Source: Anaerocaecibacter muris
GTDB lineage: Bacteria; Bacillota; Clostridia; Christensenellales; Pumilibacteraceae
Length of the DNA stretch: 64,000 nt
Reading direction: 5' to 3'
Assembly: GCF_943192945.1 (NCBI RefSeq)
Contig: NZ_CALPCE010000004.1
Location: forward strand, 124,001-188,000
Numbering within the stretch: position 1 is the first letter of the stretch; every line of letters starts with the position of its first letter. Shown here one piece after another: positions 972 to 45,889 of the stretch. The position numbers and the translations under genes are program-made. Below the pieces are notes generated by a model. It saw only the letters and a program-made list of their open reading frames with translations, ran no database searches and was not told where the DNA came from.

Positions 972-981
972 ATTTACCTCC

Positions 982-2109: not shown

Positions 2110-2399
2110 CAGAACGCTCCCTTGCGGTACGCAAACAGCATTCGTCGGATCATATCGAGCGTGTCCGTAACGGACACACCCGATTTATCCTTCGATACTT
2201 GCCGCTCTTCGTAAAGCGTCGCGGTTACGATGAGCATTGCTTGGTATATCGGCTCTGGTATTCGGTCGAAGTCCGCAAGCGGTCTTCGCAATACGTCTTC
2301 GACCAATACCTTTGCCGTTACGATAAGCGAGGAAATGAGCGCGTCTTCGGTATCGTCGTCCACACGGAGAAATTCCTTTGTTTCCTGTAAACTTATCAC
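2109..2399 (-). CDS. Head-tail connector protein (gp6-like)
   Basis: This 96-residue protein begins ISLQETKEFLRVDDDTEDALISSLI, the characteristic opening of the gp6-like head-tail connector family (HK97 gp6/SPP1 gp15), whose rings extend the portal. The second half contains an RRPLADFDRIPEPIYQAML helix and a conserved LYEERQ segment. The start codon is GTG at 2399, preceded by GGCGGTGGG. It lies between the capsid gene and the head closure gene, the expected location. Confidence 0.85.
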   Translation of the reverse strand: MISLQETKEFLRVDDDTEDALISSLIVTAKVLVEDVLRRPLADFDRIPEPIYQAMLIVTATLYEERQVSKDKSGVSVTDTLDMIRRMLFAYRKGAF

Positions 2400-2417
2400 G
2401 CGCCCACCGCCTTTACG

Positions 2418-29509: not shown

Positions 29510-30079
29510 TTATGTTTGCGAAAAACCAAACACCGCAATTAATAATTCAACATATTCCTTAAAGGCGCATGTTTCTTTGATTTCTTTACACAGCCGCTCG
29601 GCGATTCCATTATAGTACCAATCGTGTTTCGATTTGTCTTTTACATTAAACCTCTTCCAAAGCTCATCCCCCACCTCTACATAATCATGGTATATAGCAC
29701 GCATATTAGACAGTTTATCGGCAAGGATTATGATTTGCTCGTCTTTGCTTGCTTTTGGAATATAGTCGAGAGTTTCCTGTTTCCGTATTTCCCAGGTTTC
29801 TGCAGCCGGCCTGTCCTCACGCTTATCTTCGCTATCAGCACATACAAGACTGGTAATTCTTTTGCCGAACTGTGCTTCAAGCTGTTCCTTTGTGGTGGAT
29901 GTGTCCTCTATGACATCATGCAATACCGCCGCCGCAATCACTTCTTGATCAGTGGTCATACTTGCTACAATTGCCGCCACTTCCAGCGGATGAACGATAT
30001 AAGGAACTTTACTGCTTTTCCGATACGCTCCACTATGCGCCTCGGTTGCAAAGATTATTGCTTTATCAAATATAGTCAT
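29510..30079 (-). CDS. HD-domain hydrolase, SpoT/MESH1-like
   Basis: The 189-residue protein has the HD metal motifs in order: HSGAYRKSSKVPYIVHPLEVAAIV, VLHDVIEDTSTT (HDxxED), and ILADKLSNMRAI with the late Asp. The pattern matches the (p)ppGpp hydrolase branch of HD proteins, without synthetase or TGS domains. It may hydrolyse alarmone or another nucleotide. It lies at the end of the unit that includes TerD and ends at a terminator, so it may serve the same stress response. Membership of the island rather than the prophage is inferred from the terminator and promoter between them. Confidence 0.8.
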   Translation of the reverse strand: MTIFDKAIIFATEAHSGAYRKSSKVPYIVHPLEVAAIVASMTTDQEVIAAAVLHDVIEDTSTTKEQLEAQFGKRITSLVCADSEDKREDRPAAETWEIRKQETLDYIPKASKDEQIIILADKLSNMRAIYHDYVEVGDELWKRFNVKDKSKHDWYYNGIAERLCKEIKETCAFKEYVELLIAVFGFSQT

Positions 30080-30125
30080 TAACCTATTCTCCCGTCTAAC
30101 TAAATCCTGGTCTAGACCTTTGTTA

Positions 30126-31043
30126 CTATCTTATGCTCATAACTTCATCAGCTAATTGACTAATATTTTCCGCATGGCTCCCTTTCCCTATTGCCTTAAA
30201 CAACCATTCTCCTCCACGTCGATATGCCACACCTATTACTAATGCTGTAAAGTTTTTCATATTAGCATTAACTTTATATTCTATTATAGCTTTTCTCGAA
30301 ACAGGATCATAAAGGCGTATGTACATATTTTTTACATTGCCGAGCTGTTGATGCCTTGATCGGCATTCATAGATATTCAATACAAATATAAGTCTATCTC
30401 TATTTTGAGGTACTTTGTCAAGATAAACCGTAATGTTTTCATCGTCGCTCTGATTTCCATCCTCGTCCTCACCAGTCAAATTATCCCCATGATGAACAAC
30501 ACAACCAGACGGGTGCTGCAAATCACCGAAATACACAATTTCCTTTCCTGCGTTCCCGGCTACAACAACAGAAGAGTCAACATCCATATTGTGTCCGATA
30601 ACCGTTGGATCCCATCCCACCCCAACAATTATTTTCGAAAGTGGTCTATTATCCGCAAAATGTATTTTAACTTCTTGCCCTTGCGATAATCTTACAATAT
30701 CGCCCTCTTTGTAGCCTCTGCCTATAGCAGATGCAGAATAATCTATTTCGAGATTATTGCAATATATGCACTGAAAATTATACTCTTTTGACCGACAATT
30801 AAAAGATTTTTGCGGGCATGAACATCCTGACACAACCCTCTTCCCGCACTTTTTACAGGGTTGGAGGTTATCATTTGTCATGAATGATGATTGCTTTACT
30901 TCGGACGATATAACCGACGCTTCTTCTTCGGTAATATTAATAAAATTAACTACTTTCCACACTCCGCCGAATTGCTTTATCTCAAGCCCAAAATGTTGAT
31001 TGGTGTTTTTACAATATGCCTTGATGAATTTTGTGTTTTTCAT
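30126..31043 (-). CDS. TerD-family protein with zinc-ribbon insert
   Basis: The protein is 305 residues. The first 120 carry a cysteine-rich region (CKKCGKRVVSGCSCPQ, CIYCNN). The rest is a TerD domain: VGVGWDPTVIGHNMDVDSSVVV, FGDLQHPSGCVVHHGDNLTGE, VYLDKVPQNRDRLIFVLNIYE, MKNFTALVIGVAYRRGGEWLFKAIG. The acidic calcium-binding positions of TerD (DVDSS, GDN) are present. TerD proteins act in membrane-linked chemical-stress and phage-resistance complexes. Its neighbour is an AAA-like/transglutaminase protein, 11 bases away. Confidence 0.88.
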   Translation of the reverse strand: MKNTKFIKAYCKNTNQHFGLEIKQFGGVWKVVNFINITEEEASVISSEVKQSSFMTNDNLQPCKKCGKRVVSGCSCPQKSFNCRSKEYNFQCIYCNNLEIDYSASAIGRGYKEGDIVRLSQGQEVKIHFADNRPLSKIIVGVGWDPTVIGHNMDVDSSVVVAGNAGKEIVYFGDLQHPSGCVVHHGDNLTGEDEDGNQSDDENITVYLDKVPQNRDRLIFVLNIYECRSRHQQLGNVKNMYIRLYDPVSRKAIIEYKVNANMKNFTALVIGVAYRRGGEWLFKAIGKGSHAENISQLADEVMSIR

Positions 31044-31054
31044 AATCGAACTCC

Positions 31055-32770
31055 TTAATTGAAATATTCTTTACTTGCCCCTTTAGAAGCAAATACACTA
31101 CCATTACGTGCAAGTTGCAGTCTAGCACTTTCCAATATGTTTTCTTTGCCATTGCAAACTATATTCGGCATCCTTGTCCAAATTCTATCAGATTGAAAAT
31201 CAGCATCAGAAAGTCCATAATATTTATAACGTGCCTTACCGCATTTTCGTGCGTCCCATGTTACATCAACGTGGTAATAATTTTTTTTGTCAAAACTAAT
31301 TACATTCCATGCGTGATAATCGGGAGAACCTTTAATTTTTCCGCAAATCACCTCGCAGATTATTCCTTGCGCAACAAGAATCCTTTTATATGCTTCTGCA
31401 TATCCTTGACATACGCATTTGCAGTTTATCAATGCCCCATAAGCACTTTGCATATAACTTTTTTCAAGTGGTTTTGCTTCTTCGTCCAACCAATATGTAA
31501 CGGTTTTAGCCAAATAATTATGTGCTATGAAAGCCTCCATCCCCGATAGATTCAAATCGCCGCCACCACTGCATAGTGCTTTTGTATCCTTAACAGAGAT
31601 TTGTTTACTCTTTTTTTCTTTCTTTACATTTACAAGGTGTTTTTGATAGATGAGTTCTCTGACAACCTTTTTAACGGTATTTACTCCATAAAACTTCCCG
31701 TCACTCTTTTCTTCCGAGATGCGACTGAAAAAATAATCCCACGAGGGTTTCGCAATTGAAAAGCCAAATCTTCTCAATTCATTCTCAGCGCATTCCTTTA
31801 TTTCATTTTGACTAAGAGGCGGGAACGTTACGGTCTTAACACTAAGCAAATCAGACAGTGAGTATTTGATTCTTTCAAGCACGTCCTTATCTACAAAAGG
31901 TATTCTAAACACTACTATATACTCATTTGCATGCTTTTCAACGGTTCGTAAAAATTGCTTGAAATATCGATTGTCCGTTCTGTCCATCCATTCGCTTATA
32001 TCTACACATAGCACCTTAAGATTTTTTTCACTGCCGCTATTTAAGGCGTTCATTGCCCCTTCAAACGGTTCTATTCCTTCACGGTAGGCATCGATACGTT
32101 CTTCGCGTACCGGGCGAGATGCTATAGAGCATAGTTTGCATTCCGAGATGAGCTGCGCCATTAATTCCAGATATGTGGTAAGTCCACAACCATCGCCGAT
32201 TGAAAAAAGGTAGCATTGATTGGTGAATACCTCATATGTATCTGTTCGCGTGATTTCTTCCGCTATGCCCAATATCTCATTTGATAACGCTTTGAATTCC
32301 GCCGCCCCAACTAGCGCATTTATTTTGTCAATTGCTGCGCCACCGTCTTTTGATTTTTCGGATACATCGGCACTATCCTCATCCACTTCATGTTGCAATC
32401 GTTCAATTAGTTCCTGACGCCGACGCTCCAGATATGCACGCCGATCTTCTTGCTTTTGTGAATCAACATCCTCTTCTTGTTGCTCTTCATCCACAACATC
32501 ACTTGACTGAAATGAGACTATATCGTTTACTTTATCTTCGGGATAATGCTCCGCGAATAGCCGCATTATGCAATCTTTGATGCCACCATAATCCACAAGC
32601 TGCTCATCATATACAATGGTAATGGTTGTAAGAGAGCTATCCTTAATTATTAAGTTTTTATCCGATGACAATGTCGCTTTGATTACGGCAATAGGTAATT
32701 CATCATCATCTCGGTGCTGTAACACCCACTTGCCATCCAACTCTATTGTTATTTGTTTCTTAGTGCTCAT
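31055..32770 (-). CDS. AAA-like/transglutaminase fusion protein
   Basis: The protein is 571 residues. The N-terminal 160 are charged, with a coiled coil (EDRRAYLERRRQELIERLQ). The middle looks like an AAA module with a degenerate P-loop FSIGDGCGLTTYLEL (Thr where the catalytic Lys is expected) and VLCVDISEWMDR as a Walker B-like strand. The C-terminus is a transglutaminase-fold domain with apparent triad: Cys in VCQGYAEAYKRIL (about 454), His in DYHAWNVI (about 486), Asp in HVDVTWD (about 502). It could cleave or crosslink proteins. Close linkage to TerD suggests a shared stress or defence role; the mechanism is unknown. Confidence 0.75.
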   Translation of the reverse strand: MSTKKQITIELDGKWVLQHRDDDELPIAVIKATLSSDKNLIIKDSSLTTITIVYDEQLVDYGGIKDCIMRLFAEHYPEDKVNDIVSFQSSDVVDEEQQEEDVDSQKQEDRRAYLERRRQELIERLQHEVDEDSADVSEKSKDGGAAIDKINALVGAAEFKALSNEILGIAEEITRTDTYEVFTNQCYLFSIGDGCGLTTYLELMAQLISECKLCSIASRPVREERIDAYREGIEPFEGAMNALNSGSEKNLKVLCVDISEWMDRTDNRYFKQFLRTVEKHANEYIVVFRIPFVDKDVLERIKYSLSDLLSVKTVTFPPLSQNEIKECAENELRRFGFSIAKPSWDYFFSRISEEKSDGKFYGVNTVKKVVRELIYQKHLVNVKKEKKSKQISVKDTKALCSGGGDLNLSGMEAFIAHNYLAKTVTYWLDEEAKPLEKSYMQSAYGALINCKCVCQGYAEAYKRILVAQGIICEVICGKIKGSPDYHAWNVISFDKKNYYHVDVTWDARKCGKARYKYYGLSDADFQSDRIWTRMPNIVCNGKENILESARLQLARNGSVFASKGASKEYFN

Positions 32771-32788
32771 TTTCGTTTGTATTCCTAT

Positions 32789-33112
32789 TTATAGGTAAAT
32801 TATGATATCCGATAATTCCTTTTGCGATATTTGTGCATAAAACAGCATGTCTTCCAAGGACACAGCCGTTCGCCCGTTTTCCCAATTGAATATGACACTC
32901 TCCGAAACGCCAAACACCTCAGCGAGTTCGTTACGGCTGATATGGTTGTCCATCTCAAATCTGCACTCACTACATTCGCCGCTACAATCACCCTTATCAT
33001 GTTTAAGCGCATTGCAGACACAACGTCTAAGCTCAACGTTATCTTCTCGAAGCAACTGTAAATTCCTGCCCGTCTTTTTCCAATCAATAAATTGTCTATG
33101 TATCGGTTTCAT
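32789..33112 (-). CDS. HTH protein with cysteine-rich insert
   Basis: The protein is 107 residues. The C-terminal half is an XRE-type HTH (SRNELAEVFGVSESVIFNWENGRTAVSLEDML). Between residues 30 and 52 lies a Cys-rich stretch (CVCNALKHDKGDCSGECSEC) that could bind metal or sense redox state. It is placed between the AAA/transglutaminase and phosphatase genes, and is likely the local regulator of this set. Confidence 0.7.
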   Translation of the reverse strand: MKPIHRQFIDWKKTGRNLQLLREDNVELRRCVCNALKHDKGDCSGECSECRFEMDNHISRNELAEVFGVSESVIFNWENGRTAVSLEDMLFYAQISQKELSDIIIYL

Positions 33113-33118
33113 AACATC

Positions 33119-33658
33119 CTATCGCTTACCATATTTGTACAGCCATCCGGGTTGCCATTTCCCTTTGAGACGCCAATCGTTATTAATCACATCTTGCCAA
33201 GGTAATTTATTTATTATAACCTCCAATGCAAGTTGCGGAGCTCTATGGCTCACTATTGCAATTCTTTTACCGTCGTAAGATTTCAATAACTCAGATAAGA
33301 ACCATTCCATACGCTCTTGGACATTGATAAGCGACTCCCCCTGGGGGAATTTTGATTCTATATGATCTTCATAAACGACCTGTCTACCCAGAGTTCCATT
33401 TAGTATTCCATAGTTGCATTCTCTTAGACGAGAATCATATATTATATTTTTATCTGGAAATAATATATTCGCGGTTTGTTTAGCACGCACGAGATCTGAA
33501 GAATAATATAAATCAAAGTCTCTATATAATAAACTATCTCGTGCTCTTATTGTTTGTTCTTCTCCTAAAGAAGACAATGCACAGTCATGCCAACCACTAG
33601 ATCGATGTTCTTCATTGTCTACTGATGTACCATGAGCAAAAAAAACTAAATCAATCAT
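33119..33658 (-). CDS. Histidine-phosphatase-fold protein, variant active site
   Basis: The 179-residue protein starts at 33658 (MIDLVFFAHGTSVDNEEHRSSGW). The family's RHG motif is AHG here, and the second His lies in IAIVSHRAPQLALEV. LSSLGEEQTIRARDSL and YYSSDLVRAKQTA are typical branch-1 phosphatase segments. AHGTxxDNE is seen in some family branches, but loss of the Arg may alter phosphate binding. Overlap with the neighbouring 272-residue gene indicates co-translation. The substrate is unknown. Confidence 0.75.
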   Translation of the reverse strand: MIDLVFFAHGTSVDNEEHRSSGWHDCALSSLGEEQTIRARDSLLYRDFDLYYSSDLVRAKQTANILFPDKNIIYDSRLRECNYGILNGTLGRQVVYEDHIESKFPQGESLINVQERMEWFLSELLKSYDGKRIAIVSHRAPQLALEVIINKLPWQDVINNDWRLKGKWQPGWLYKYGKR

Positions 33659-34469
33659 TCCTATCCACCTTTTTAAAAAATACTTTATCAAATGGCAAAT
33701 CACAATCTACTATTATCGGACACGTTTTTTCGCCAAAATTGTAATATCCCTCAATAGAAATATAGTCCATCCCTAGCAAACGACACATGCGATTGGCATT
33801 CATAATAAGATAATCTCCATATTTTTCAATCAAATTACGTAACCATAAAACAAGTGAGTCCTCTCCACTAATACAGTATTGCCGTGAAAAAAAATTTTTT
33901 TGCATAGATGCTGTTGGATGCAATCCGCGTTCATTTTCGAATGTCAAGTAAGCCTGTCCATAGCCAGCTTCAAAATAAATATCTTGACATAAATCATCAA
34001 TCGAATATCTAAAGCAAATTGAATGAGGCCCAGATGATTCCGGGAAAACAACTATGCAATCTTGATCACACAATTGATTTAATGCTGAAGAAAATTGTGT
34101 GATTTCTTCTCCATAATCCAATGCCATACTTTTAGAGTGACACGCTTCGTTGTTTTTATGAATAGTCATTCGAAGAACAGAGTTGTTATACAATTCCTTA
34201 AATTCTTTGAAAGCATCTATTGGATTCATGTTTTTGGAAAAGCTTTTAGAAGGTGGAGCACCAAAGTAACAGGCGACAAGCTTTTTTTTAAACAGCTTCC
34301 AATTTCTATTATATGTAAACCCATACTTTCGAGCTATGATATCTGCCCAATTATAACATTCCTCTATCGCACTAACATAGTCGTCACAATGTAACGCTTT
34401 ATCGATTTGCTCCTGCGCAAACTCATATTCCGCTTCCATTTTTGAAAGTTCATAAATGCTAATTATCAT
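33651..34469 (-). CDS. Unknown protein coupled to the STAND protein
   Basis: The product is 272 residues from 34469 (MIISIYELSKMEAEYEF), overlapping the end of the STAND gene by four bases. The first 50 residues are helical. Two later parts, SGPHSICFRYSIDDLCQDIYFEAGYGQAYLTFENERG and MCRLLGMDYISIEGYYNFGEKTCPI, suggest a compact alpha/beta fold. I do not recognise the family. Its tight coupling on both sides suggests it works with the SIR2/STAND protein and the phosphatase-like protein. Confidence 0.6.
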   Translation of the reverse strand: MIISIYELSKMEAEYEFAQEQIDKALHCDDYVSAIEECYNWADIIARKYGFTYNRNWKLFKKKLVACYFGAPPSKSFSKNMNPIDAFKEFKELYNNSVLRMTIHKNNEACHSKSMALDYGEEITQFSSALNQLCDQDCIVVFPESSGPHSICFRYSIDDLCQDIYFEAGYGQAYLTFENERGLHPTASMQKNFFSRQYCISGEDSLVLWLRNLIEKYGDYLIMNANRMCRLLGMDYISIEGYYNFGEKTCPIIVDCDLPFDKVFFKKVDRND

Positions 34470-37400
34470 TCGTTTATCACACATCTAAATCCAACATTAT
34501 AATAATCCTTTCTGCCATCATAACTAAACCTATACCATAGCCACGGCATAATATCCATTAAGCTCCAAGAACCACCTTTAACGATTTTCTTATCTAAATC
34601 AGATCCTGCTTGTGTCGAAGTCCATTCCCATACCATTCCCGCCATATTATAGCAATTAAATGGACTAACGCCTGCTTGATACTCATCCACTCTACCCAAT
34701 CCGTCCGTTCCAGTTAAACTCGTATTGCATTTTTTCTTATCTTCCGATAAAGTCCTCTCTTCCTCGGGATTCCAGTCATTCCCCCAAGGAAAATCATATC
34801 CATTATTTCCCCTCGCAGCATACTCCCACTGATCTTCTGTTGGAATTGTCTTATTCCACCACTCAGCATACTTTAATGCTTTTATGAAGCTAATTCCAAC
34901 AACGGGAAAATCAGCCTTCTCTATATCAAATGTGTGGTTCTCCTCAAATTCGGCATATTCAGCATTAGTAACAAGATACTTATCGATTCTATAACGTTTT
35001 AATGTCACATTACGCTCTTTATCGGGGAAAAATTTAAGCAATTGTGTTGCGATATTATTCTTTTTTGTTATCTCTTTAACTCTTTTAACACTCAAGCCCA
35101 GACAAGGAGCAGATTCTTCAACGATTACCATATTTCTTGTTCTATTGCTATCAAGAGTGGCATTAATATTTTTTATTAATGCTGCGTTAACCATAATACC
35201 GTCTAACGACACTAAAAATGTCAAAACCGCATTTATATGGGGATTAACAATTTTCTCATAACGGATAGGAACACTATTTTGATTTGTTAAAACCAACCAT
35301 ATAAATAAAGCGCAATTTCTTGCATATCCTTTCCTATTTTCAATAATACACTCAAAATATTTATCTATCGCATTGCTATTATTACATTGTTGAATCCAAT
35401 ATTTCGCATCTTCAGTAGAAATTTTTGCTAACATATTTGAATTTACTAAACTAGCTAAAATATATGCATCAATATCTGCACTATGATTAATCCTATTTTT
35501 ATAATTATTTAATTCTGTAATCATTTCTTCATCATAAATGAAATTCTTTAAAACACTGTATTTTTGCCATCTTAATAAATCATTATCTAACATCTCTCTT
35601 AATTTATTTAAATTAAGAGTCTCCATATCCATCCACTCATTTATTTTTTTAATAATATATTCATGTGTAAGTTCATAGCTCTCACTATTAGTATCATCAG
35701 TAATACGCCTAATAAGCCTTGTCTCGATTAACGAATTAATAATATGATCTATGTTACTAACATCTCTAATACACTCTTTCAGCGCATCCTTTGTTACTGG
35801 TTTTCTGGTGTTTTTCGATGAAACCATAGATTTTAGTATTTCTTTTGCGGAAGACAATTCTTGCGCATTGCTTTTAAATACGCCTAAGCTGTCTTCTATA
35901 TACCTAGCTAAAATTTCTTCGGCCTTCCCTAGCTTGACATAAAGGTCTCTAGTAATTATTTTATCATTATTTATCTCACTTTCTTGATACAATTTATCAC
36001 ATACTATTTGCAACTGGGAAGGGTCTATTCCATTATTACTATCGGCATTGTTTTCTCTCGAACTTAAATCATCTACTATTTCCTCTGGAAGCCCATCTTC
36101 AAATGAAATACCAAAATGTGCAGCAGGTTTTATTATAGCGTCAACGGCACTTCTATTCGGTAATGGAGGTAAAAAATAATCATTTTTGTCCAAATATTGA
36201 ATTATATTACTTTTGCCAATCATATGGTAAAAATCTTCGCGAATAGATAGAATTATCTTAGTATTGGGATTGTCGTGAAGAAAATTAGTTATCCCATCTC
36301 TGAAAATTGATATTTCCGTATCGCTTCCACCAGTAAACAATTCCTCAAATTGGTCAATTATTATAAATTGGTATTTCTTCTTTGAAAAATCAGTAGCAAT
36401 TATTGAGCCTGTATCATTGACGTCCCTCTTGAATACAGACCGATTGAGTTCTTTCCATGGATTATTTCCACACCTAATATAAAATATATCATATTCTTCG
36501 CGCTCTCGTAGTCTTGGTATAAGTCCAGCATTAATCATAGAGGTTTTACCATAACCAGACTTTGAGGAAATAACCAAAATTTGACTCGTGGCCTCGACCC
36601 TAATACAAAGTGTAACTAATTCATCGTCACGTCCAAAAAAAATGTCCGCATCTTCTTCTTCAAAACTATTTAAATATTTATATGGTGAACCCTTCTTTCT
36701 TGTTACTCGTTCACTATTTTTAGATCGAACACTAATTTTTCGAGCTTCATTTTCAGCTAAAATATTATTTAAAGTAGTTTTTATGTCATGCCATATTATT
36801 AGATTTTCATTTTCTCCATATGCGTTAGAATCAGACGGTAAGATATCGTCAGTAAGCAAATAAGCAGTATTAGGGTATTCACCATTGCGTCTACAAAAAT
36901 GGTCATATATGCGTTTAAAAAAACGATCATTCGGGTCGAAACCTATAAAAACAATTTGGTTTCGTAAGAGACTTTGAAATGTTACTGATAGATTATTTTT
37001 ATCAGTCAATCTATCATCAATTTCATTTGATGCCAATAAAGGATTATCCGAGGCATACGAGCCAAAATAGCTTAAAAACACCTGTTCTGTATTTATAACA
37101 TCAAAATCTTCTGAAAAGTTTTTTTGCGAACAATGGATACAAGAATCAGGTCTATTAATTACATAAGAGTACCACTGCGAAAAGGGATGCGTCTCTATCA
37201 CACATTTAGGATGTAGTTTGTCTAAACATTCAAAATAAGAGGGAATTGCAGAATTAGCCATAAGGTAAGAAGCTAATCTCGCAATTAATTCTTGCTTACC
37301 TTTTCTTCTAATAAACATATCTACGGCGTCTTCGTATGCCACATTGGATACACCCAACTCACAACAAAGTTTATTTATTATATCTTTTTGCGTCAAAGAA

Positions 37401-37495
37401 CAGTCATTTTCTGGATGATGCTCTTTGGGCAAACCTAGTATAACAACTAGCTGTTTCCTATTTAAGGCTTCGATTATCGGTATATATTTATCCAT
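34466..37495 (-). CDS. SIR2-like/STAND NTPase/FGE-sulfatase defence protein
   Basis: The protein is 1009 residues from 37495 (MDKYIPIIEALNRKQ, preceded by AGGGG). Residues 1-230 resemble SIR2-like defence effectors (LVVILGL, VIETHPFSQWYS, IVFIGFDPNDRFFKRIY), but the usual TTN is THP, so NAD cleavage is not assured. Residues 285-640 form a STAND-type NTPase: Walker A SSKSGYGKTSMINAGLIPRL, Walker B FIIIDQFEELF, and IILSIREDFYHM. Residues 840-1009 form a formylglycine-enzyme-like domain (PVVGISFIKALKYAEWWNK, MAGMVWEWTS, VKGGSWSL, GFRC). This would be an Avs-like sensor that triggers an effector. It is AT-rich compared with flanking chromosome. Confidence 0.8.
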   Translation of the reverse strand: MDKYIPIIEALNRKQLVVILGLPKEHHPENDCSLTQKDIINKLCCELGVSNVAYEDAVDMFIRRKGKQELIARLASYLMANSAIPSYFECLDKLHPKCVIETHPFSQWYSYVINRPDSCIHCSQKNFSEDFDVINTEQVFLSYFGSYASDNPLLASNEIDDRLTDKNNLSVTFQSLLRNQIVFIGFDPNDRFFKRIYDHFCRRNGEYPNTAYLLTDDILPSDSNAYGENENLIIWHDIKTTLNNILAENEARKISVRSKNSERVTRKKGSPYKYLNSFEEEDADIFFGRDDELVTLCIRVEATSQILVISSKSGYGKTSMINAGLIPRLREREEYDIFYIRCGNNPWKELNRSVFKRDVNDTGSIIATDFSKKKYQFIIIDQFEELFTGGSDTEISIFRDGITNFLHDNPNTKIILSIREDFYHMIGKSNIIQYLDKNDYFLPPLPNRSAVDAIIKPAAHFGISFEDGLPEEIVDDLSSRENNADSNNGIDPSQLQIVCDKLYQESEINNDKIITRDLYVKLGKAEEILARYIEDSLGVFKSNAQELSSAKEILKSMVSSKNTRKPVTKDALKECIRDVSNIDHIINSLIETRLIRRITDDTNSESYELTHEYIIKKINEWMDMETLNLNKLREMLDNDLLRWQKYSVLKNFIYDEEMITELNNYKNRINHSADIDAYILASLVNSNMLAKISTEDAKYWIQQCNNSNAIDKYFECIIENRKGYARNCALFIWLVLTNQNSVPIRYEKIVNPHINAVLTFLVSLDGIMVNAALIKNINATLDSNRTRNMVIVEESAPCLGLSVKRVKEITKKNNIATQLLKFFPDKERNVTLKRYRIDKYLVTNAEYAEFEENHTFDIEKADFPVVGISFIKALKYAEWWNKTIPTEDQWEYAARGNNGYDFPWGNDWNPEEERTLSEDKKKCNTSLTGTDGLGRVDEYQAGVSPFNCYNMAGMVWEWTSTQAGSDLDKKIVKGGSWSLMDIMPWLWYRFSYDGRKDYYNVGFRCVINE

Positions 37496-37496
37496 A

Positions 37497-38141
37497 TTAA
37501 CCCCTGTTAGCAAATAGTTTATCGCCAACCGATTTTAGTTTGGAATACATTGAATCTATATTCCCTATAAACAAGTCCTTTTGTGTATCGCTTGGATTGT
37601 CGATAAGCATTGATTTAATATTTCTAAAGAAACTTGTATTAATATAATCATACAAGGAATTTCTCAAATCATCATCGAGATAATCAGAAAACGGCAACAA
37701 TTCCCCTCTTAATTCAAGAGTTCTGTTATAGAAATTTATAAAGTGCTGGTGGTAATTCATAAACACTCTACCATTATTTTCTTGAACGATAGTGCGCAAA
37801 TTGGGTGAACTTTCTAGGCTTGTAGAAGAACTATCAATTGAACTACAAACTTTTCCTATCTCGTTATATTCCATGCAAAGTTTAACAATATAATAATCAA
37901 TCACTTTGTTCACCGAGCACTTTTTACGATTCTCTGGCAAGAAAGCGATTATAAAAAATAAATATGAAACGGCAAGATTAGCGCAAAGTCCAGTTATATT
38001 TTGAACCAAAGAACCATATTGGCTGTACGCTTTATTGTTACTAAACACACAATCTATGACAATTCCGGTAACAAACAAAATTGACGAAACTATACAAACG
38101 ATTCTTAAAATTAACTCAACTATATCGCGATTTTTCTTCAT
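37497..38141 (-). CDS. Two-helix membrane protein before the STAND gene
   Basis: The 214-residue protein has two N-terminal membrane helices (LILRIVCIVSSILFVTGIVI and NLAVSYLFFIIAFL, about residues 10-65). A cytosolic helical domain of about 150 residues follows. It stops one base before the STAND gene starts, so the two are probably translated together. It could be a membrane partner or effector of that system. No family is recognised. Confidence 0.65.
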   Translation of the reverse strand: MKKNRDIVELILRIVCIVSSILFVTGIVIDCVFSNNKAYSQYGSLVQNITGLCANLAVSYLFFIIAFLPENRKKCSVNKVIDYYIVKLCMEYNEIGKVCSSIDSSSTSLESSPNLRTIVQENNGRVFMNYHQHFINFYNRTLELRGELLPFSDYLDDDLRNSLYDYINTSFFRNIKSMLIDNPSDTQKDLFIGNIDSMYSKLKSVGDKLFANRG

Positions 38142-38416
38142 TTCTTAATTGTTATACCGCTATTCCTTTCAATTAAGAAAATACCATCATGGTAATCAAG
38201 TTCAGTAATGGCAAGCAAGTCCAAATCGACCTTCCCTGATACATTCAAGATGTTTTTATAAATAGATCTTGTAACATTTCCATGCGTAACAATGGCAATA
38301 TTGGTGTACCCATTGTTTTCAGCATCTGCCACTACTTCATATAGTCCATTTCTTACACGTTCGTCAAATTCTTTTGCGTAATTTATCAAGCGTCGATAAA
38401 TCTTGAGATTTAACAA
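38138..38416 (-). pseudogene. Histidine-phosphatase C-terminal fragment
   Basis: The 92-residue frame has only the second half of a histidine phosphatase (FDERVRNGLYEVVADAENNGYTNIAIVTHGNVTRSIYKNIL). The RHG half is absent and there is only a TTG start. Its upstream part overlaps the 94-residue hypothetical gene in another frame. It most likely remains from a truncated gene, though a short functional protein cannot be excluded. It overlaps the membrane protein start by four bases. Confidence 0.5.
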
Positions 38417-38648
38417 TTGAATAGTTGATTATAGAATCTCTTGTGAGATTAAAAAGTGCTAAATAAAATTCATTAAGCTCTTCATCCGATAAAAAATCCC
38501 CATACGCTATTTCCAAGTCATTTTTCATCCCTTTATATGCGCAATTATAAATTACTTCAAATTCTATTTTATCGTGCGCAGAGGGATTATTCCGAATATA
38601 GTTTAAACAGTGCTGAACTGCACGAGTTCTAATGTTCTCATTTACCAT
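38364..38648 (-). CDS. Hypothetical protein, 94 residues
   Basis: The product is helical (MVNENIRTRAVQHCLNYIRNN..., SDEELNEFYLALFNLTRDSII) with no domain recognised. No clear ribosome binding site is seen before the ATG at 38648. Its end overlaps the phosphatase fragment in a second frame, so this stretch may be the scar of a deletion joining two genes. Confidence 0.4.
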   Translation of the reverse strand: MVNENIRTRAVQHCLNYIRNNPSAHDKIEFEVIYNCAYKGMKNDLEIAYGDFLSDEELNEFYLALFNLTRDSIINYSIVKSQDLSTLDKLRKRI

Positions 38649-38656
38649 TTGAGGGA

Positions 38657-39226
38657 TTAATGAATTCGCAGTCTTTTTAATTGAAATATATGGATGATTA
38701 CCAAATACATTTCATCGAATAGTTCTATAACCATTTCAACCGCTTTCGGATTGAAACGTTTCTGTCGTGATAATAGAGTGTATGACATCCCGCTTGATGC
38801 CTGTATATCATAATACCGATATCCAAACAAATAAACGAGAGGATTTACAAAAATAGCCTTTGTCCATAATAACATTAAAATTATAATGAATATCATAGCA
38901 CACAACACCCACAGGTTTATATCCGTAATCGATAAAGTCACGACGGGAAGCAAGTATGCAATCATACTCGACAATGAATTAGTATCTCCAGGCGAGGTCG
39001 CATTAATGACCAGTTTTGACTTAGGTAAACTCTTCTTTGCAAGAGCTAACAAACCAAAACAAATAGGGATGCACACAACACCTATAGCAAAGACCACACA
39101 CCCTATCCACAAATCTCCAGTAATTTGCTTGATTGTCAGGCTATCAACGAATAATGCGATTCCACAAACAAGCATTAAAGGAGCATAGGACGTTACTGTC
39201 CATATTATTTTTACGAATTTGCTCAT
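38657..39226 (-). CDS. Membrane protein with four helices, KwaA-like (tentative)
   Basis: The protein is 189 residues. Hydrophobic helices lie at about 12-30, 40-62, 85-105 and 110-128. A cytosolic tail has NPLVYLFGYRYYDIQASSGMSYTLLSRQ. The four-helix layout plus a GYRYY segment recalls KwaA of the Kiwa system, but no KwaB (DUF4868) gene is nearby, so that label is weak. AAAGGAGGT lies 13 bases upstream, a long spacing. It sits between two defence loci as a possible orphan. Confidence 0.55.
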   Translation of the reverse strand: MSKFVKIIWTVTSYAPLMLVCGIALFVDSLTIKQITGDLWIGCVVFAIGVVCIPICFGLLALAKKSLPKSKLVINATSPGDTNSLSSMIAYLLPVVTLSITDINLWVLCAMIFIIILMLLWTKAIFVNPLVYLFGYRYYDIQASSGMSYTLLSRQKRFNPKAVEMVIELFDEMYLVIIHIFQLKRLRIH

Positions 39227-39319: not shown

Positions 39320-40513
39320 CTATAATGCACGCTTAATAATTTTTCCTATGTGTGGATCATATTTATAATGCTCACCCTCTTGGGCCACTATAAGTTTCAC
39401 AGCCTCCTCGACAATACCGAGAGGCACAGAAAACCACTCTCTGGGATAATGCGTATTGCCCCGCCTATCTCTGACCTCAAAAGCAATATTCGCATCCACG
39501 AAAAAGTCATGTATTGCGGACTCGAGATATCGCGTATTCATATTAAAGCATCGAACGGTCAATATAATCGTGACATCGCTTAATAAATATGTTGGCTCGT
39601 TACGAGCATTTTTCACTCGCTCTGTCACAGATCCCGAGCAATACCCAATTTTATACAAGTCTTTTATTGCTCTAATGCTCGGATTATTACTTTGACTCTT
39701 TAATACATAAATATAACCATTTTGAACGTCATCATCCGTTACTTGGTCAAATTCCATATCATCAATAGGCTCACTTATGCAAAACCCGTCGATATTCATA
39801 GCTTTCTCAAGAGAGCGATAAAGCATATTGGATTCTGTACCATTATCAAAAATGCATCTTGTTCGACCGTCTAATCTGTTATAAGTTCCGCTTTCATATA
39901 TTCTAGGATCCACTTTCAACTTATCAAATTGCAATAAGAACATAACCCCACGTAAAACATAGAAATGACCATCAAGCAATGCTCCCCTTTTATACTCAAC
40001 CAATTTGCGTCTCCCAATTTCAAGGTCACGTGCTATCATATCAAAAACTTTTTTGAACTGTAAAAAATCTTTACATACTTTTCTATGGGCAATATAGTCA
40101 GGTCGAATTCTATCTGTTGGCTTCACATGCGATAAAGTAAATATACTTGTATCACCTGATACATCATCTAAAATCCCAAGTGGATCGTTTTTTAAAATAT
40201 CATCAATTGTGACGGTCGTTGTATTCTGTATGTCAAGAAGATTATATAAATCAAATGGCTGTAATAATTTCACTTTTTTAGGATTAGCTCGAATTGCCTT
40301 CAGTCTATTGGCAAGCATATATTCTTCCATATCCCCGTCCTCTTGCGGACATTTACCTTGCGCCTCATAAAAATCACAAATTTGCTGAAATCCTTCTATT
40401 AATCGTTGGTCTTCAGGCGTACGCACAGCTTTCTCTGACTCATCATCTATCAGCAATCCAAGACTGTCGCTCTCAAAAATATCTTTAAGTTTCTTCAGTT
40501 TGCTGTCATTCAT
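39320..40513 (-). CDS. GIY-YIG nuclease (T5orf172/MUG113 type)
   Basis: The protein is 397 residues. The C-terminal 130 form a GIY-YIG-like nuclease: NGYIYVLKSQSNNPSIRAIKDLYKIGYCSGSVTERVKNAR, with a later YLESAIHDFF and a WFSVPLGIVEEAV end, typical of T5orf172 proteins. The N-terminal 250 residues may bind DNA or partners (DFYEAQGKCPQEDGDMEEYMLANRLKAI). It overlaps the helicase gene by 8 bases and ends the methyltransferase operon, so it is the likely restriction nuclease of the set. Confidence 0.82.
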   Translation of the reverse strand: MNDSKLKKLKDIFESDSLGLLIDDESEKAVRTPEDQRLIEGFQQICDFYEAQGKCPQEDGDMEEYMLANRLKAIRANPKKVKLLQPFDLYNLLDIQNTTTVTIDDILKNDPLGILDDVSGDTSIFTLSHVKPTDRIRPDYIAHRKVCKDFLQFKKVFDMIARDLEIGRRKLVEYKRGALLDGHFYVLRGVMFLLQFDKLKVDPRIYESGTYNRLDGRTRCIFDNGTESNMLYRSLEKAMNIDGFCISEPIDDMEFDQVTDDDVQNGYIYVLKSQSNNPSIRAIKDLYKIGYCSGSVTERVKNARNEPTYLLSDVTIILTVRCFNMNTRYLESAIHDFFVDANIAFEVRDRRGNTHYPREWFSVPLGIVEEAVKLIVAQEGEHYKYDPHIGKIIKRAL

Positions 40514-42434
40514 TTCCGTTTTTGTATCCCCTTTTCAGTTGACGTAAATATACCAATGCTTCCGCAAGCCTTCTCTCAGTAGGGTCTAATGCATCAAGTG
40601 AAGGCTTACGTCTCATACTCCTAACAAAATCATTTATTTTAGGCCACAAATAAATTGCCTCATCGTCCGTCATGCTAACTTTAAAGGCTGAGATGCACTC
40701 TTGAATCGATTTCAATACTTTGGGCGTAATTGTTTTCGAAATAACCTCAAACGCCTGTTGAAAAGGATTAACTGAGTCAATTAGGTCTATATTAATTTCC
40801 TCAATATTGATAAATTTGTTATTAATTTGCAAAAATTTCACTCCGCTCTGGTCAGTTGTTATACCTCTACGAAGAACCATATCTGTGACCAAATGTTCCC
40901 GAATCTCTTCAACCTCTTCCTCTTGCAAATCGGGATATCTGGTCATAATAATTTTCGGGATCATTATTTTATTAACGATTTCCGGATCGACTTCTCCAAT
41001 AAAAGATTTTTGAATATCTGGATTTTGTAAAATAGCCGCTTTTAATTCAGTTAAATCAGATGAAACAATTTCCTTTACCCTATCAGTACTTGGTTCTTTC
41101 AATCCTTTAACTGTCACGATTCCAGAATCGTCATAGCCGTCTTCATCTGGATTTTTTTTGGATTTAAATGTTAATACTGGCGCAAGAACCTGTTCCATCA
41201 ACAACGATGCAGATATTGCTTTCAAAATATTATTCACAGTCTCCACAACTGCTTCGTTTTCCGCATCGGGTTCTGCCACAAGATTTGTAAATTGCGCATG
41301 CGTTTTATTAGAACTATCTCTTGTGCATCTTCCAATAATCTGAATAATTTCTGTCAGTGACCCCCTATATCCAATAGTCAATGCATGTTCACAAAATGGC
41401 CAATCAAAACCCTCTTTTGCCATTCCCAAGGCAATTATAATATCAATATCATCAGGAGCTGACACATCACGCAAGAAAGATACAACTTTTTCTCTATCTG
41501 CTGGTGCATCGTTCACGAGATCAGCAATTTTAAGCATCTTACCATTTGGCTGCTTCACATGAATTATGTTATTTTCATCAACAAATTCAATTTTGCCAAT
41601 CGCATCGATAATTGCGTCAACTTCAATATATTTGTCTTTGGTTGACTCTCCAGAATTCACGTTTGGGATATGGATTATTGTCTTTTTTGTTGTGTCAAGC
41701 ACTTGCATTATGGCGTCTGTATATCGACCATGATAAAAATGAAATCCAATACCTAGAGATTTTAGGTACTGATACCCATTGAGCTGTTCATAGTAATTGT
41801 ATGTAACTTTTACAAATTGAGCTTCATCCTCTTCCAATAGAACTGGTATTCCATCCCCTCTAAAGTAAGATCCCGTCATTGCTATGATATGAGCATTCGA
41901 CTCGGTCATTAAACTTCTTACTAATTCCCCAAGTTTGCTCTCATAATCCGCCGATACATGATGGAATTCATCAATAGCAACCAAACATCTGTCAAACGCC
42001 TTTGCCCCAATCCTGTCATATGCAAAGCGTAAAGTTGCATGTGTACAAATTAATATTTGGGTATCACCCTTCATAAAACTTTGAAAAACATTAATCTTCC
42101 CTCCTTCTCCACCCGGCATACATAGATTATAGCGAGGATCAAGAATCCAATCGCTATGAAATCCTTTTTTCTTTAAATCTGTAGTACTAAAAGATTTTCC
42201 TATGGAACGCTCGGGAACAGCAACGATTACTTTATCTACTGCTCTCGTTTTTAGCTTATCTAATGCAATGAACATTAACGCCCTGGATTTCCCAGACGCT
42301 GGAGGAGCCTTTATGAGCAAATATTGAGCCGCACGAGATTTATATGCTCGCGCTTGCATTTCACGCATTCCCATTTCATTAACTGAAGTGCTTTTGCCAG
42401 TAGCTTGATAACGAATGTCAATTATATTATTCAT
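40506..42434 (-). CDS. DEAH-type SF2 helicase of the restriction locus
   Basis: The product is 642 residues from 42434 (MNNIIDIRYQATGKSTS), with GGAGGAAAG upstream. Motifs are Walker A IKAPPASGKSRALMF, DEFHH in CLVAIDEFHHVSADYES, motif III AMTGSYFRGDG, and motif VI QIIGRCTRDSSNK. The C-terminal 220 residues are helical and probably contact the nuclease or methylase. It overlaps both neighbours, so it acts with the GIY-YIG nuclease in a translocating restriction complex (inferred). Confidence 0.88.
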   Translation of the reverse strand: MNNIIDIRYQATGKSTSVNEMGMREMQARAYKSRAAQYLLIKAPPASGKSRALMFIALDKLKTRAVDKVIVAVPERSIGKSFSTTDLKKKGFHSDWILDPRYNLCMPGGEGGKINVFQSFMKGDTQILICTHATLRFAYDRIGAKAFDRCLVAIDEFHHVSADYESKLGELVRSLMTESNAHIIAMTGSYFRGDGIPVLLEEDEAQFVKVTYNYYEQLNGYQYLKSLGIGFHFYHGRYTDAIMQVLDTTKKTIIHIPNVNSGESTKDKYIEVDAIIDAIGKIEFVDENNIIHVKQPNGKMLKIADLVNDAPADREKVVSFLRDVSAPDDIDIIIALGMAKEGFDWPFCEHALTIGYRGSLTEIIQIIGRCTRDSSNKTHAQFTNLVAEPDAENEAVVETVNNILKAISASLLMEQVLAPVLTFKSKKNPDEDGYDDSGIVTVKGLKEPSTDRVKEIVSSDLTELKAAILQNPDIQKSFIGEVDPEIVNKIMIPKIIMTRYPDLQEEEVEEIREHLVTDMVLRRGITTDQSGVKFLQINNKFINIEEINIDLIDSVNPFQQAFEVISKTITPKVLKSIQECISAFKVSMTDDEAIYLWPKINDFVRSMRRKPSLDALDPTERRLAEALVYLRQLKRGYKNGNE

Positions 42435-44997
42435 TTCTTTCCTCCATAAGTTGTTTATAAAAAGCGAATAAATAATCCAAGCGTTCTTCATCCGATAAAA
42501 AAGGCTCTTCTCTATAACAACTTTCTATAACTCGATCAAGAATACTGTGTTCATATCGCAACCCAGCACTCATGCCTTCCTCCGAATACATTTGCGCATA
42601 GGTTTTTTGTGATATTTCTTCTCTTTCAGCCAATATTCGCTTCACGCAGTCTGTGATTAATTTTTTTTGTTCCAAACTAATAGGGGGGAAGGGAAAAGTA
42701 TTATATCCAAGCCGTGATGAGTATCTTAAACGAGTCTCAAGGCCACCACATACGGTTCGAATCCACAACAAATGCATTCGGGATGCCACAACACCAAATA
42801 TCCATGGCTCTGCCTCATATACTACAAAGCATAGGTTCGACACAATAGTATCTGAACCTATAAAGCCTATTTGCATATATTTTCTATTCTCTGATGAAAC
42901 AGAGGGCACGACCAGTGAACATCCGCTGGTAGAACGCATTTCACGAAATTGATGTGGCCTTTCCGCAAGCTTTTGTCCAGAAATATCAATGAGTTGAGAT
43001 CTATACTCACGACATTTTTCTATACGCTCTTTAATAGGTAAAATACTTAATGCAATACCAAGCCGATCATCGGGAATCCACAAACACCATCTCTCTATTC
43101 CATTAATGTATTCTTCTGACCCGACCAATTTCTTAAATAGTATCTCTGCCTCAGGGTACTCTCCTATTATCCTCGCATGTTCTTCTTTGGATATGTCCGA
43201 CAAAAAGCCCTGATCATATGGCATATTTCCTTTATTCATGTATGGCAAATCGGACAGTGGTTTTGTTCGTTTCAAGACAATTTCATTGCATTGCGTGATG
43301 TACGGACCTATTTCTAAAACCCGATAATAACGGGTATTATCAAACAACTCACATTCACGCTTCCTCTGAGATGAGCTTACACCAAATATCACAACAGTGA
43401 CTTCCGTGCTATTTTTCGCATTATTTCTCCACTTAAATGGTTTGTAAGCAAATTGAATATAAACATCATGCTCAAATATTATAGGCCAAAGAAGTCCTAC
43501 CTGTTCTCCTTGCGAAAGGGAATTTGTGGTAACAAACGAAAAAGCAGATTTCCTTCGCTCAATAATCTTGGTTGCCAAAAGAAACCAGCAAGCTGCATAG
43601 TCCAATTCTGCGCATTTGGAATATTCTGAAAAAACATTTTCTTTATCTTCTTTTTGTTTCTTTGTTTGTTTCTTGGCCCCTCTATACGGAGGATTCCCAA
43701 TAATATAAACTTCATCGCTATCAGGAATACCTACATCCCATTCTACAAGCAACGGGTTCTCCTCTCTGATATCGATTTGCATCGGGCAAGGTATATCGCC
43801 CCCATTTTGCTTAATAGAAATCGCTAGTGAAATCTTTGCAATTTGGGATGCGAAGTGAATATTTTCTATCCCGTGAATATTATCCCATAAATTATTCTCG
43901 TTAGATTCAAAGCCCAATTCACTTAGACGTTCATTAACATAACTCCCTAGTTTGGATAATTCTCTATATGCCTCAATTAAAAAGTTGCCTGCCCCACAAG
44001 CCGGATCAATAATATGAATATGCTGTAAGCGGTTGCATAGAGTTTTAAGTCCATCGATATCATTTTTATTATCTTCATATGCTTGATATAATTCGTCAAG
44101 AAAAAGAGGGCCGATTACTTTATGTATGTTTTCATTAGTTGTGTAACATGATATACCTCGCGCAGTCGCATCTTGTAAGATTGCCCCTAATACCTCTGCA
44201 GATACATCACCCCAGTCTAAATTCATTACCTCATATATTTTCTTACGAACATCTTCGTTATATTCAAGCCCCTCGAAATCCCAGCTCAATATTTCATTTA
44301 CGCACGTTGAATCCCAATAGTTTACGCTCAGCCGAGGAACATAGTCCTTTTTTGCCGACAACCCCCATATATCTAAAATCAACAAGCGGAAAAATTCATT
44401 TGTCTCCGTTCTATAAGCAGATAAAATATTACCTATTTGGTGTCGTGCGCCATTGACACTATCATCAGTGAAAGCAAGCCAAATAAGAGCACAAATAAAA
44501 TCTTGCACCTCACGTTCTTTCTCTTTACCATTATATAGGGTCAGCCCATTATAAATTGTTGCTAATTGCTCAGCAACGCGCATGGTGACTAAATCAATAT
44601 TACTATAGTCTCTTTTCTCACGTCCAACCAACGGAAAAAAGAACTCAAAACGAGAAAAAACCTTTTCTTTACTAATTACCAGCGTTTCGAATGTGTTTGT
44701 ATCAAATGCTAGCATATCCGACTCGTTTGTCAAAATAATGAATCGGACATCGAATTTCTCAATATTTTTTTGTTGCAAAGAGTTTAGCACTGAATAAAGG
44801 TTCTTAACTTTTGTATCCATAATAAACGCTTGTTTTGATACAAACACGCCCTTATCAATGTCATTCGTTGCACAAGCCTTAATGCGATCAAACGTTGCCT
44901 GTGGATAATCCCAAGCATCAAAAAACTGCTCAAAGTATTCCATTCCTTTAAGATCTGAAATGGCTTGCAGCTTCATTTTTAATGCTTGATAATCCAT
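42427..44997 (-). CDS. MmeI-like adenine-N6 DNA methyltransferase
   Basis: The protein is 856 residues from 44997 (MDYQALKMKLQAISDLKG), four bases after the C5 methyltransferase stop with AGAGGTG upstream. SAM motif HIHIIDPACGAGNFLIEAYREL (about 350) and catalytic VYIIGNPPYRGAKK (about 460) mark a gamma-class adenine methyltransferase. SLVVPSVSSENRKYMQIGFI and SRLGYNTFPFPP belong to the target-recognition part. Unlike MmeI, the first 150 residues show no evident PD-ExK nuclease, consistent with cleavage being supplied by the neighbouring GIY-YIG protein. Confidence 0.88.
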   Translation of the reverse strand: MDYQALKMKLQAISDLKGMEYFEQFFDAWDYPQATFDRIKACATNDIDKGVFVSKQAFIMDTKVKNLYSVLNSLQQKNIEKFDVRFIILTNESDMLAFDTNTFETLVISKEKVFSRFEFFFPLVGREKRDYSNIDLVTMRVAEQLATIYNGLTLYNGKEKEREVQDFICALIWLAFTDDSVNGARHQIGNILSAYRTETNEFFRLLILDIWGLSAKKDYVPRLSVNYWDSTCVNEILSWDFEGLEYNEDVRKKIYEVMNLDWGDVSAEVLGAILQDATARGISCYTTNENIHKVIGPLFLDELYQAYEDNKNDIDGLKTLCNRLQHIHIIDPACGAGNFLIEAYRELSKLGSYVNERLSELGFESNENNLWDNIHGIENIHFASQIAKISLAISIKQNGGDIPCPMQIDIREENPLLVEWDVGIPDSDEVYIIGNPPYRGAKKQTKKQKEDKENVFSEYSKCAELDYAACWFLLATKIIERRKSAFSFVTTNSLSQGEQVGLLWPIIFEHDVYIQFAYKPFKWRNNAKNSTEVTVVIFGVSSSQRKRECELFDNTRYYRVLEIGPYITQCNEIVLKRTKPLSDLPYMNKGNMPYDQGFLSDISKEEHARIIGEYPEAEILFKKLVGSEEYINGIERWCLWIPDDRLGIALSILPIKERIEKCREYRSQLIDISGQKLAERPHQFREMRSTSGCSLVVPSVSSENRKYMQIGFIGSDTIVSNLCFVVYEAEPWIFGVVASRMHLLWIRTVCGGLETRLRYSSRLGYNTFPFPPISLEQKKLITDCVKRILAEREEISQKTYAQMYSEEGMSAGLRYEHSILDRVIESCYREEPFLSDEERLDYLFAFYKQLMEERNE

Positions 44998-45001
44998 CTG
45001 T

Positions 45002-45889
45002 TCACCTCTGCTCATATTCCAAAATAGCGTCTCCAATATACTCTGCGAGTCGGACAGGTACTGCATTCCCAATAGCTTGCTCTATGTCCGATTTATTCCC
45101 AACCCATTTAAAGTCCGAAGGAAATGTTTGAATAAGGCCTCTTTCCATGGATGACAATGCACGAACTTTTGACAAATCTGCGGTTTTATCGGCATGATGA
45201 GGCTTATAATTGCTTGGCATAGGACGATTAACTCCGCGAATCGTAGCACTCGGTTCATATATACTAAATATTGCTCGTCGATTATAGCTACGGGGGTGCA
45301 TATAATAAAACTCTGTTCCTAGCAAATTACCAAGATAGTCATAAACACTCATTGGCTTACTGGCTCTGTGGTTATCTAAAATACACTCCAAAAAACCGTC
45401 TCTTTCATCCAAACAACCTATCATAATAAAGCGTTTCCGCCGTTGAGGTACACCATAATAGCTAGCATCAAATACTCTATAAGTTAACCCATAATTAGCA
45501 TCCTTAAAAATTTCTATTGCGGTTGACAAAATAGGCATTCTCACTATATTGTAAACATTTTCCATTACGAACCATTTAGGTTTTACTTGAGATACAATTT
45601 CGGCAAATTTAATGGTCAAATTTGCCCTTTCCCCCAAGCTTCTTAAGCCCGCTATGGAAAAGTCTTGACAAGGAGGTCCACCGATAATAATATCAGGGTG
45701 GCTGGATTCTATTTGATCAATGACATCGCTATTATTTAGGTCACATTCATATATTGGATGAGCGAAATTTTCTTTATAAATATTTACAGCAGGTTCCCAC
45801 TTATCATATGCTGCGATTATATCGAACCCGGCATTTTGGAAGCCTAGTGACATGCCTCCGCACCCAGAAAACAAATCTATAAGTCTCAT
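45002..45889 (-). CDS. C5-cytosine DNA methyltransferase, second copy
   Basis: The 295-residue protein shows motif I MRLIDLFSGCGGMSLGFQNAG, catalytic IIIGGPPCQDFSIAG, motif VI FVMENVYNIVR, motif VIII YYGVPQRRKRFIMIG, and a terminal AIGNAVPVRLAEYI. The small target-recognition region (about 170-230) differs from that of its upstream paralogue, so the two may methylate different sites or strands. Its ATG overlaps the paralogue's stop (ATGA). Confidence 0.92.
   Translation of the reverse strand: MRLIDLFSGCGGMSLGFQNAGFDIIAAYDKWEPAVNIYKENFAHPIYECDLNNSDVIDQIESSHPDIIIGGPPCQDFSIAGLRSLGERANLTIKFAEIVSQVKPKWFVMENVYNIVRMPILSTAIEIFKDANYGLTYRVFDASYYGVPQRRKRFIMIGCLDERDGFLECILDNHRASKPMSVYDYLGNLLGTEFYYMHPRSYNRRAIFSIYEPSATIRGVNRPMPSNYKPHHADKTADLSKVRALSSMERGLIQTFPSDFKWVGNKSDIEQAIGNAVPVRLAEYIGDAILEYEQR

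Follow-up and report, generated by a model that had tools for sequence, protein, structure and literature searches.

The window analysed here is a stretch of 64,000 nucleotides from Anaerocaecibacter muris (contig NZ_CALPCE010000004.1, positions 124,001 to 188,000 of the forward strand). It encodes a protein of 1009 amino acids (aa) which joins an N-terminal SIR2 fold, an nSTAND1 NTPase and a C-terminal domain with the fold of the formylglycine-generating enzyme (FGE), and whose gene lies in a tight run with those of a two-helix membrane protein, a 272-aa protein and a variant histidine phosphatase. We see about an even chance that the locus is a rare STAND conflict operon, probably directed against phages, in which a pseudo-sirtuin would act as adaptor, the membrane protein as effector and the coupled genes as accessory parts. 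The genes and domains concerned are the following.

37497..38141, minus strand: two-helix membrane protein, 214 aa, candidate effector or anchor
34466..37495, minus strand: SIR2-like/nSTAND1/FGE-fold protein, 1009 aa (Pfam; 55% identical full-length relative, L002/L004/L031)
36746..37453, minus strand: SIR2-fold domain without the NADase residues, residues about 15-250 (G21-L-P-K-E, T102-H-P-F-S, F144-G)
35561..36685, minus strand: nSTAND1 NTPase, residues 271-645 (183.5 bits; SGYGKT P-loop core, IIIDQFEE Walker B)
34478..35017, minus strand: FGE/C-type-lectin-fold domain, residues 827-1006 (Pfam; solved-structure match)
33651..34469, minus strand: 272-aa protein without family, its start overlapping the STAND stop by 4 bases
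33119..33658, minus strand: histidine phosphatase 2 (Pfam His_Phos_1, 94.8 bits), sharing 8 bases with the 272-aa gene; we chose its start at 33658

The STAND protein and its coupled genes

A sequence-only reading of the window had suspected a SIR2-like N-terminus, and a SIR2 fold is supported by structure comparison and by profile alignment with SIR2_2 proteins. In this alignment GLPKE stands under GAGFS, THPFS under TTNYD and FG under HG, and the relative, encoded in another genome of the same genus (G014), has GLPIG, THPFS and FG at the same three motifs. The THP in place of TTN, already noticed in the earlier reading, is therefore a feature of both copies, in which the Asn of TTNxD is changed to Pro and the Asp to Ser. 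This Asn and Asp are present in all 28 aligned SIR2_2 proteins of the same order, 7 of which come from loci cut by a contig end where a reading with a T/S-x-N-x-D-like motif at the start was preferred, the other 21 leaving no choice; two of the 30 loci were omitted (L085 and L091, the latter with a stop). By plain pattern GxGxS was counted in 23/28 of these proteins and HG or NG in 17/28, and since these two motifs are less uniform the loss of TTNxD is the strong point. In PaAvs5 the motifs are GAGxS, TTNxD and, as the third, NG or HG, and the exchanges N110A and D112A abolish immunity (PMC12931631). Neither known copy has the residues of GAGxS, TTNxD and HG, and the SIR2 part therefore seems inactive as a hydrolase of nicotinamide adenine dinucleotide (NADase); the Avs-like NADase effector implied by the sequence-only reading is not supported, and an Avs5-like activity is unlikely. 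The two copies share 62% identity in residues 84-220, 43% in residues 1-83 and 55% over the whole protein, so that the core of the SIR2 domain seems to be kept for some role.

The STAND NTPase and the formylglycine-enzyme-like C-terminus of the earlier reading were both confirmed, as an nSTAND1 domain and an FGE fold. A pattern scan finds Walker B in the nSTAND1 domain; the strict Walker A pattern is unmatched, as Ser in the window and Ala in the relative replace the first Gly of the P-loop. The closest solved match of the FGE domain is SUMF2 (1y4j, E 2.5e-18). The catalytic cysteine pair of the enzyme, placed near the C-terminus, is missing, since the last 60 residues of both copies contain just one Cys, and the FGE part looks enzymatically dead. 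This domain is the most conserved part of the protein (69% between the copies, 80% in the last 40 residues), which suggests that the ligand of the proposed sensor is fixed and might be identified by biochemical means. That the FGE domain is varied by a diversity-generating retroelement (DGR) seems unlikely, since no template copy was found in the genome and the 3′ part is conserved and not variable: the 172-base FGE 3′ end gave only matches of 14-19 bases in its own genome (96% complete), which has three reverse transcriptases elsewhere.

The membrane gene ends 1 base upstream of the STAND gene, and the 272-aa gene starts within the STAND stop (ATGA overlap at 34469), in agreement with the arrangement described in the earlier reading. 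The 4-base and 8-base overlaps joining the STAND, 272-aa and phosphatase 2 genes recur in the relative, and the genes of this run are therefore very probably one translation-coupled unit. The proportions of nonsynonymous and silent differences between window and relative (pN/pS) are 0.298/0.742 for the STAND protein, 0.343/0.735 for the 272-aa protein, 0.393/0.781 for the membrane protein and 0.276/0.754 for phosphatase 2. All four core genes show an excess of silent change, and the ratio of about 0.37-0.50 is a rough guide because the silent sites are saturated (pS 0.735-0.781 vs pN 0.276-0.393). Their G+C content is 31.8-36.7% in the window and 32.3-36.9% in the locus of the relative (L004), where stretches nearby have 52.0% and 47.9%, respectively. 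To sum up, the linkage of the three genes first proposed holds, but the unit was drawn too small, with at least four genes in the window and eight in the relative.

The membrane protein has two helices by hydropathy and a soluble C-terminal part of about 145 aa. It belongs to no Pfam, PADLOC or NCBIfam family and gave one weak PHROGs line over 18 residues (E 0.0014); we regard it as the probable effector. The 272-aa protein matched nothing in Pfam, PADLOC and PHROGs, its two NCBIfam lines (E about 0.06) are far below cut-off, and a sequence search against solved structures gave nothing useful. A resemblance to ATP-grasp or pyruvate phosphate dikinase-like proteins, suspected by eye, was dismissed after hhalign against 10 kinase homologues (probability 0.2 of 100), as was a HEPN-like assignment, for which there is just an NCBIfam line at E 0.06 and a strand, in a poor model, where a helix is needed. 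Phosphatase 2 has AHGT in the window and VHGT in the relative instead of RHG. As an observation in its own right, the histidine phosphatase branch lacking this Arg (window 33119-33658, L045:4937-5497) also occurs with THST in the Streptomyces plasmid NZ_CP109180.1, and its members are about 35-36% identical across phyla.

The relative, its cassette and the distribution of the locus

In the relative the operon runs in the order glutamine kinase, C26 hydrolase, cytidylyltransferase, histidine phosphatase 1, membrane protein, STAND protein, 272-aa homologue and phosphatase 2, and the intact phosphatase 1 gene shares 8 bases with the membrane gene. The kinase (781 aa) scores 580.9 bits with PRK05849 (cut-off 501), the best NCBIfam line of the C26 hydrolase is the gamma-glutamyl-CDP-amidate hydrolase (CDP, cytidine diphosphate) at 90.2 bits (cut-off 250), and the third gene encodes a MobA-like nucleotidyltransferase, an NTP transferase at family level. 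Judged by their sequences these three genes resemble the phosphoramidate pathway of Campylobacter. The later steps of that pathway are assigned to Cj1417 and Cj1416, and P-N nucleotides of this kind are familiar from capsule decoration. Cj1418 is an L-glutamine kinase first annotated as phosphoenolpyruvate synthase (PMC10971088), and the pathway yields cytidine diphosphoramidates (PMC6429109). The cassette of the relative is like Cj1418-Cj1416 in having, after a PRK05849 kinase, genes for a C26 hydrolase and a cytidylyltransferase-like protein; unlike the Campylobacter genes it lies in a defence island and in one run with a STAND gene, and its hydrolase remains far below cut-off.

Nine other kinase loci were opened (L041-L044, L049-L053). 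Kinase, C26 hydrolase and cytidylyltransferase follow each other in that order in five of them, the last two being annotated as hypothetical in one case, and the other four contain a kinase-C26 fusion without the third gene, a kinase alone, a scattered set and an unannotated stretch. The surroundings look polysaccharide-like in 4/9, with glycosyltransferases, sugar or S-adenosylmethionine methyltransferases or an adenylylsulfate (APS) kinase, and no STAND gene appears in the annotation of the nine. A phylum-wide search for the kinase at E <= 1e-60 gave 0/398, with a control that was also empty. One of the loci, L041 (MT837632.1), is labelled Bacteriophage sp. and comes from human faeces; at 652-3687 it has an open reading frame (ORF) of 1011 aa which appears to combine a glutamine-kinase-like part with a C26 hydrolase, and its neighbouring genes look bacterial by eye.

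Upstream of the core genes the window holds remnants of the same arrangement and a further defence gene.

38138..38371, minus strand: phosphatase 1 fragment, C-terminal, 63% identity to residues 128-203 of the relative (205 aa) in the aligned part, 38144-38371
38379..38702, minus strand: PRK05849 glutamine-kinase-like fragment, middle part (residues 304-411 of 781), 38% identity
38657..39226, minus strand: KwaA-like membrane protein, 189 aa (PADLOC KwaA, 6.7e-27)

An independent family search places kinase positions 284-432 between KwaA and the membrane gene, with three TGA codons in this longer stretch; the aligned fragments themselves are free of stops over 108 (kinase) and 76 (phosphatase 1) codons. 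Since they stayed stop-free despite the saturated silent sites of the core genes, the cassette would already have stood with the core when the copies diverged, and its loss in the window would be recent. The kinase fragment runs into the 3′ end of KwaA in another frame, at what would be a deletion junction; this and a second putative junction lie near 38,702 and 38,375. From these features the copy in the window appears to derive from deletion, with the membrane, STAND, 272-aa and phosphatase 2 genes at full length; an assembly fault could also be the cause. Because of the junction at KwaA, Kiwa is probably broken in the window, and KwaB was not detected in a search whose control was empty too.

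The locus is rare. A full-length STAND relative was found in 1/73 other genomes of the family (G014), one further family genome gave a partial match (E 8.3e-4), and the matches in 18/397 other genomes of the phylum sample are all confined to the FGE part or its immediate surroundings. The membrane gene has a relative in 1/19 other genus genomes, again G014, and the 272-aa gene in 0/395 other genomes of the order sample. Of two queries against genome contigs, the first found none and the second one, CAMWMF010000001.1, an uncultured Clostridia metagenome-assembled genome with the match at the same position as the G014 locus. No relatives were seen on virus contigs in four scans which, like those of the genome contigs, use few short peptide patterns and can miss relatives. 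On plasmids 353 records match the STAND protein, none covering 80% of it, and there is none for the 272-aa or the membrane protein. The sequence-only reading would have been refuted had homologues of its genes never been found together in other genomes; the three genes are linked in one more (G014).

Proposed mechanism and rival explanations

Fusions of a STAND NTPase to an FGS (FGE) domain are published conflict proteins (Kaur et al. 2021, PMC8195603; Dore et al. 2024, PMC10907252, both in the portions available). The window protein is like them in its nSTAND NTPase and its C-terminal FGE/C-type-lectin fold as proposed invader sensor; where they have a variable N-terminal effector or adaptor domain, it has a SIR2 fold without the motifs, which may serve as adaptor. 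It is unlike them in its N-terminus, SIR2 not being among those named for STAND-FGS proteins in these portions, in the lack of any sign of a DGR and in its membrane, 272-aa and phosphatase partners. DGR diversification is frequent, but not obligatory, in STAND-FGS proteins. The FGE C-terminus, which had been thought unusual, loses this status, since the same sources find such fusions widely (PMC8195603) and as DGR targets (PMC10907252); with such proteins published, the frame is of a known kind and the SIR2-like N-terminus the variation. Two proteins of a Candidatus Chlorohelix plasmid (NZ_CP128403.1) have the same frame (nSTAND1 345 and 354 bits, FGE 124 and 126 bits) and carry a DUF4062 N-terminus instead of SIR2. 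With Avs5 (PMC12931631) the protein shares an N-terminal SIR2 fold followed by a STAND ATPase in one chain, but not the catalytic motifs, and it differs in the C-terminal FGE fold and in having no PADLOC match. The SIR2 effectors DSR2, ThsA and KomC are similar in the fold of the N-terminal domain, whereas the window protein has no GAGxS, TTNxD or HG and the other domains differ. Among the papers listed in literature searches, which left out bioRxiv and most subscription papers, none dealt with a SIR2-nSTAND1-FGE protein or with a glutamine-kinase cassette in defence.

For the conflict operon proposed here we envisage that the C-terminal FGE fold without the Cys pair would bind an invader-derived or infection-altered ligand, upon which nSTAND1 would exchange its nucleotide and oligomerise. 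The SIR2 fold would be an assembly or adaptor module and not an NADase, relaying the signal to the two-helix protein which would then act at the membrane. Accessory or regulatory roles may fall to the translationally coupled 272-aa protein and variant phosphatase. The ancestral core would have been linked to the kinase, C26 hydrolase and cytidylyltransferase cassette and a second phosphatase, lost by deletion in the window. Of all this, computation shows the anatomy of the locus, and the functions assigned to its parts are inferred from what STAND systems do. Bacterial SIR2-STAND proteins are by default read as NADases, and a conserved core without NAD chemistry could serve to test SIR2 folds as pure assembly modules.

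A number of observations weigh against this proposal. Two copies are known in total, and no PADLOC model matched the core genes. The SIR2_2 Pfam score is just below cut-off in both copies, the N-terminus of the relative alone reaches 22.7 with hhalign against the SIR2_2 set, under the best shuffle of 23.2, and the structure model of the N-terminus is unreliable (predicted local distance difference test, pLDDT, <50 in residues 93-178); a sequence search of the N-terminus against solved structures gave no SIR2 entry and one chance line at E 0.62. The model of the 272-aa protein is poor (pLDDT 43.8), with 0/628 Foldseek matches at E <= 0.001. Finally, the window copy may no longer be functional owing to the upstream deletions.

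Only a little less probable than even is that the cassette is a chance or surface-polysaccharide neighbour, and that the defence unit consists of the membrane, STAND, 272-aa and phosphatase 2 genes only. The window indeed keeps these four genes whole with the cassette gone, and elsewhere the cassette sits in polysaccharide-like loci. On the other hand the fragments in the same order suggest a linkage older than the divergence of copies with saturated silent sites, phosphatase 1 overlaps the membrane gene, and no glycosyltransferase family was met among the 10 proteins of L004 and 10 flanking proteins (L054, L005) scanned, a part of the ORFs, 4 of the 10 flanking ones being without family. It is quite improbable, at the other extreme, that all eight genes of the ancestral operon work as a single system. 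In it the glutamine kinase, cytidylyltransferase and hydrolase would produce a phosphoramidate nucleotide, CDP-amidate or a compound derived from it, and this nucleotide would be the ligand or modifier of the STAND protein, be trimmed by the two phosphatases and be read by the dead SIR2 pocket; the core of the window persists without the cassette and the sample is two copies, both of which weigh against it. If true, this would connect an uncommon P-N nucleotide pathway with immunity, with P-N bond chemistry as an immune signal.

Rather unlikely is that the island is in decay and its copy in the window a remnant without function. This would suit the two apparent deletion junctions upstream, the truncated phosphatase 1 and KwaA without a detected KwaB, but the four core genes are open over their full length with the silent excess given above, and their overlaps are conserved. 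We hold it for decidedly unlikely that the operon serves not in defence but in stress or metabolic regulation, sensing phosphate or nucleotides: two phosphatases and nucleotide-chemistry genes are, in our judgement, unusual for defence and the window has a TerD/HD_4 run downstream of the operon, while the defence-island context in both genomes and the rarity of the STAND and 272-aa genes speak against it. Least probable of all is that the SIR2 domain is an active, Avs5-like NADase with an unusual active site and accessory neighbours, given that both copies have lost, besides GAGxS and HG, the Asn and Asp kept in 28/28 SIR2_2 proteins and needed for PaAvs5 immunity (PMC12931631).

Island setting and neighbouring genes

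The earlier suggestion of a defence function gains support from the setting of both copies. The island of the window contains KwaA, a type IIG enzyme, two 5-methylcytosine (m5C) methylases, a DEAD helicase and a T5orf172 protein. The island of the relative contains a SIR2-HerA pair and part of an m5C methylase, together with a type II restriction-like HATPase and a protein weakly similar to Abi. In the latter island a SIR2_2 protein is followed by a HerA/DUF87 helicase (L054:5515-8243), presumably a gene pair like the known SIR2-HerA defence. In the window the two adjacent m5C methylases, the MmeI-type IIG enzyme, the DEAD helicase and the T5orf172 gene (39320-46800) are possibly one restriction island, and on the other side of the island a prophage was read by eye.

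Downstream of the core, at 29510-33112, a tight run of helix-turn-helix, AAA-like/transglutaminase, TerD and HD_4 (SpoT-like) genes appears to be a module of its own, for stress or conflict. We did not include it in the system, because matches to residues 4-413 of its 571-aa protein, outside the transglutaminase part, occur in 6/19 other genus genomes (E < 1e-60), whereas G014 has only short transglutaminase matches elsewhere in its genome. Further away, at 60803-63950, two overlapping ORFs of 443 and 662 aa appear by eye to be one large helicase split by a frameshift.

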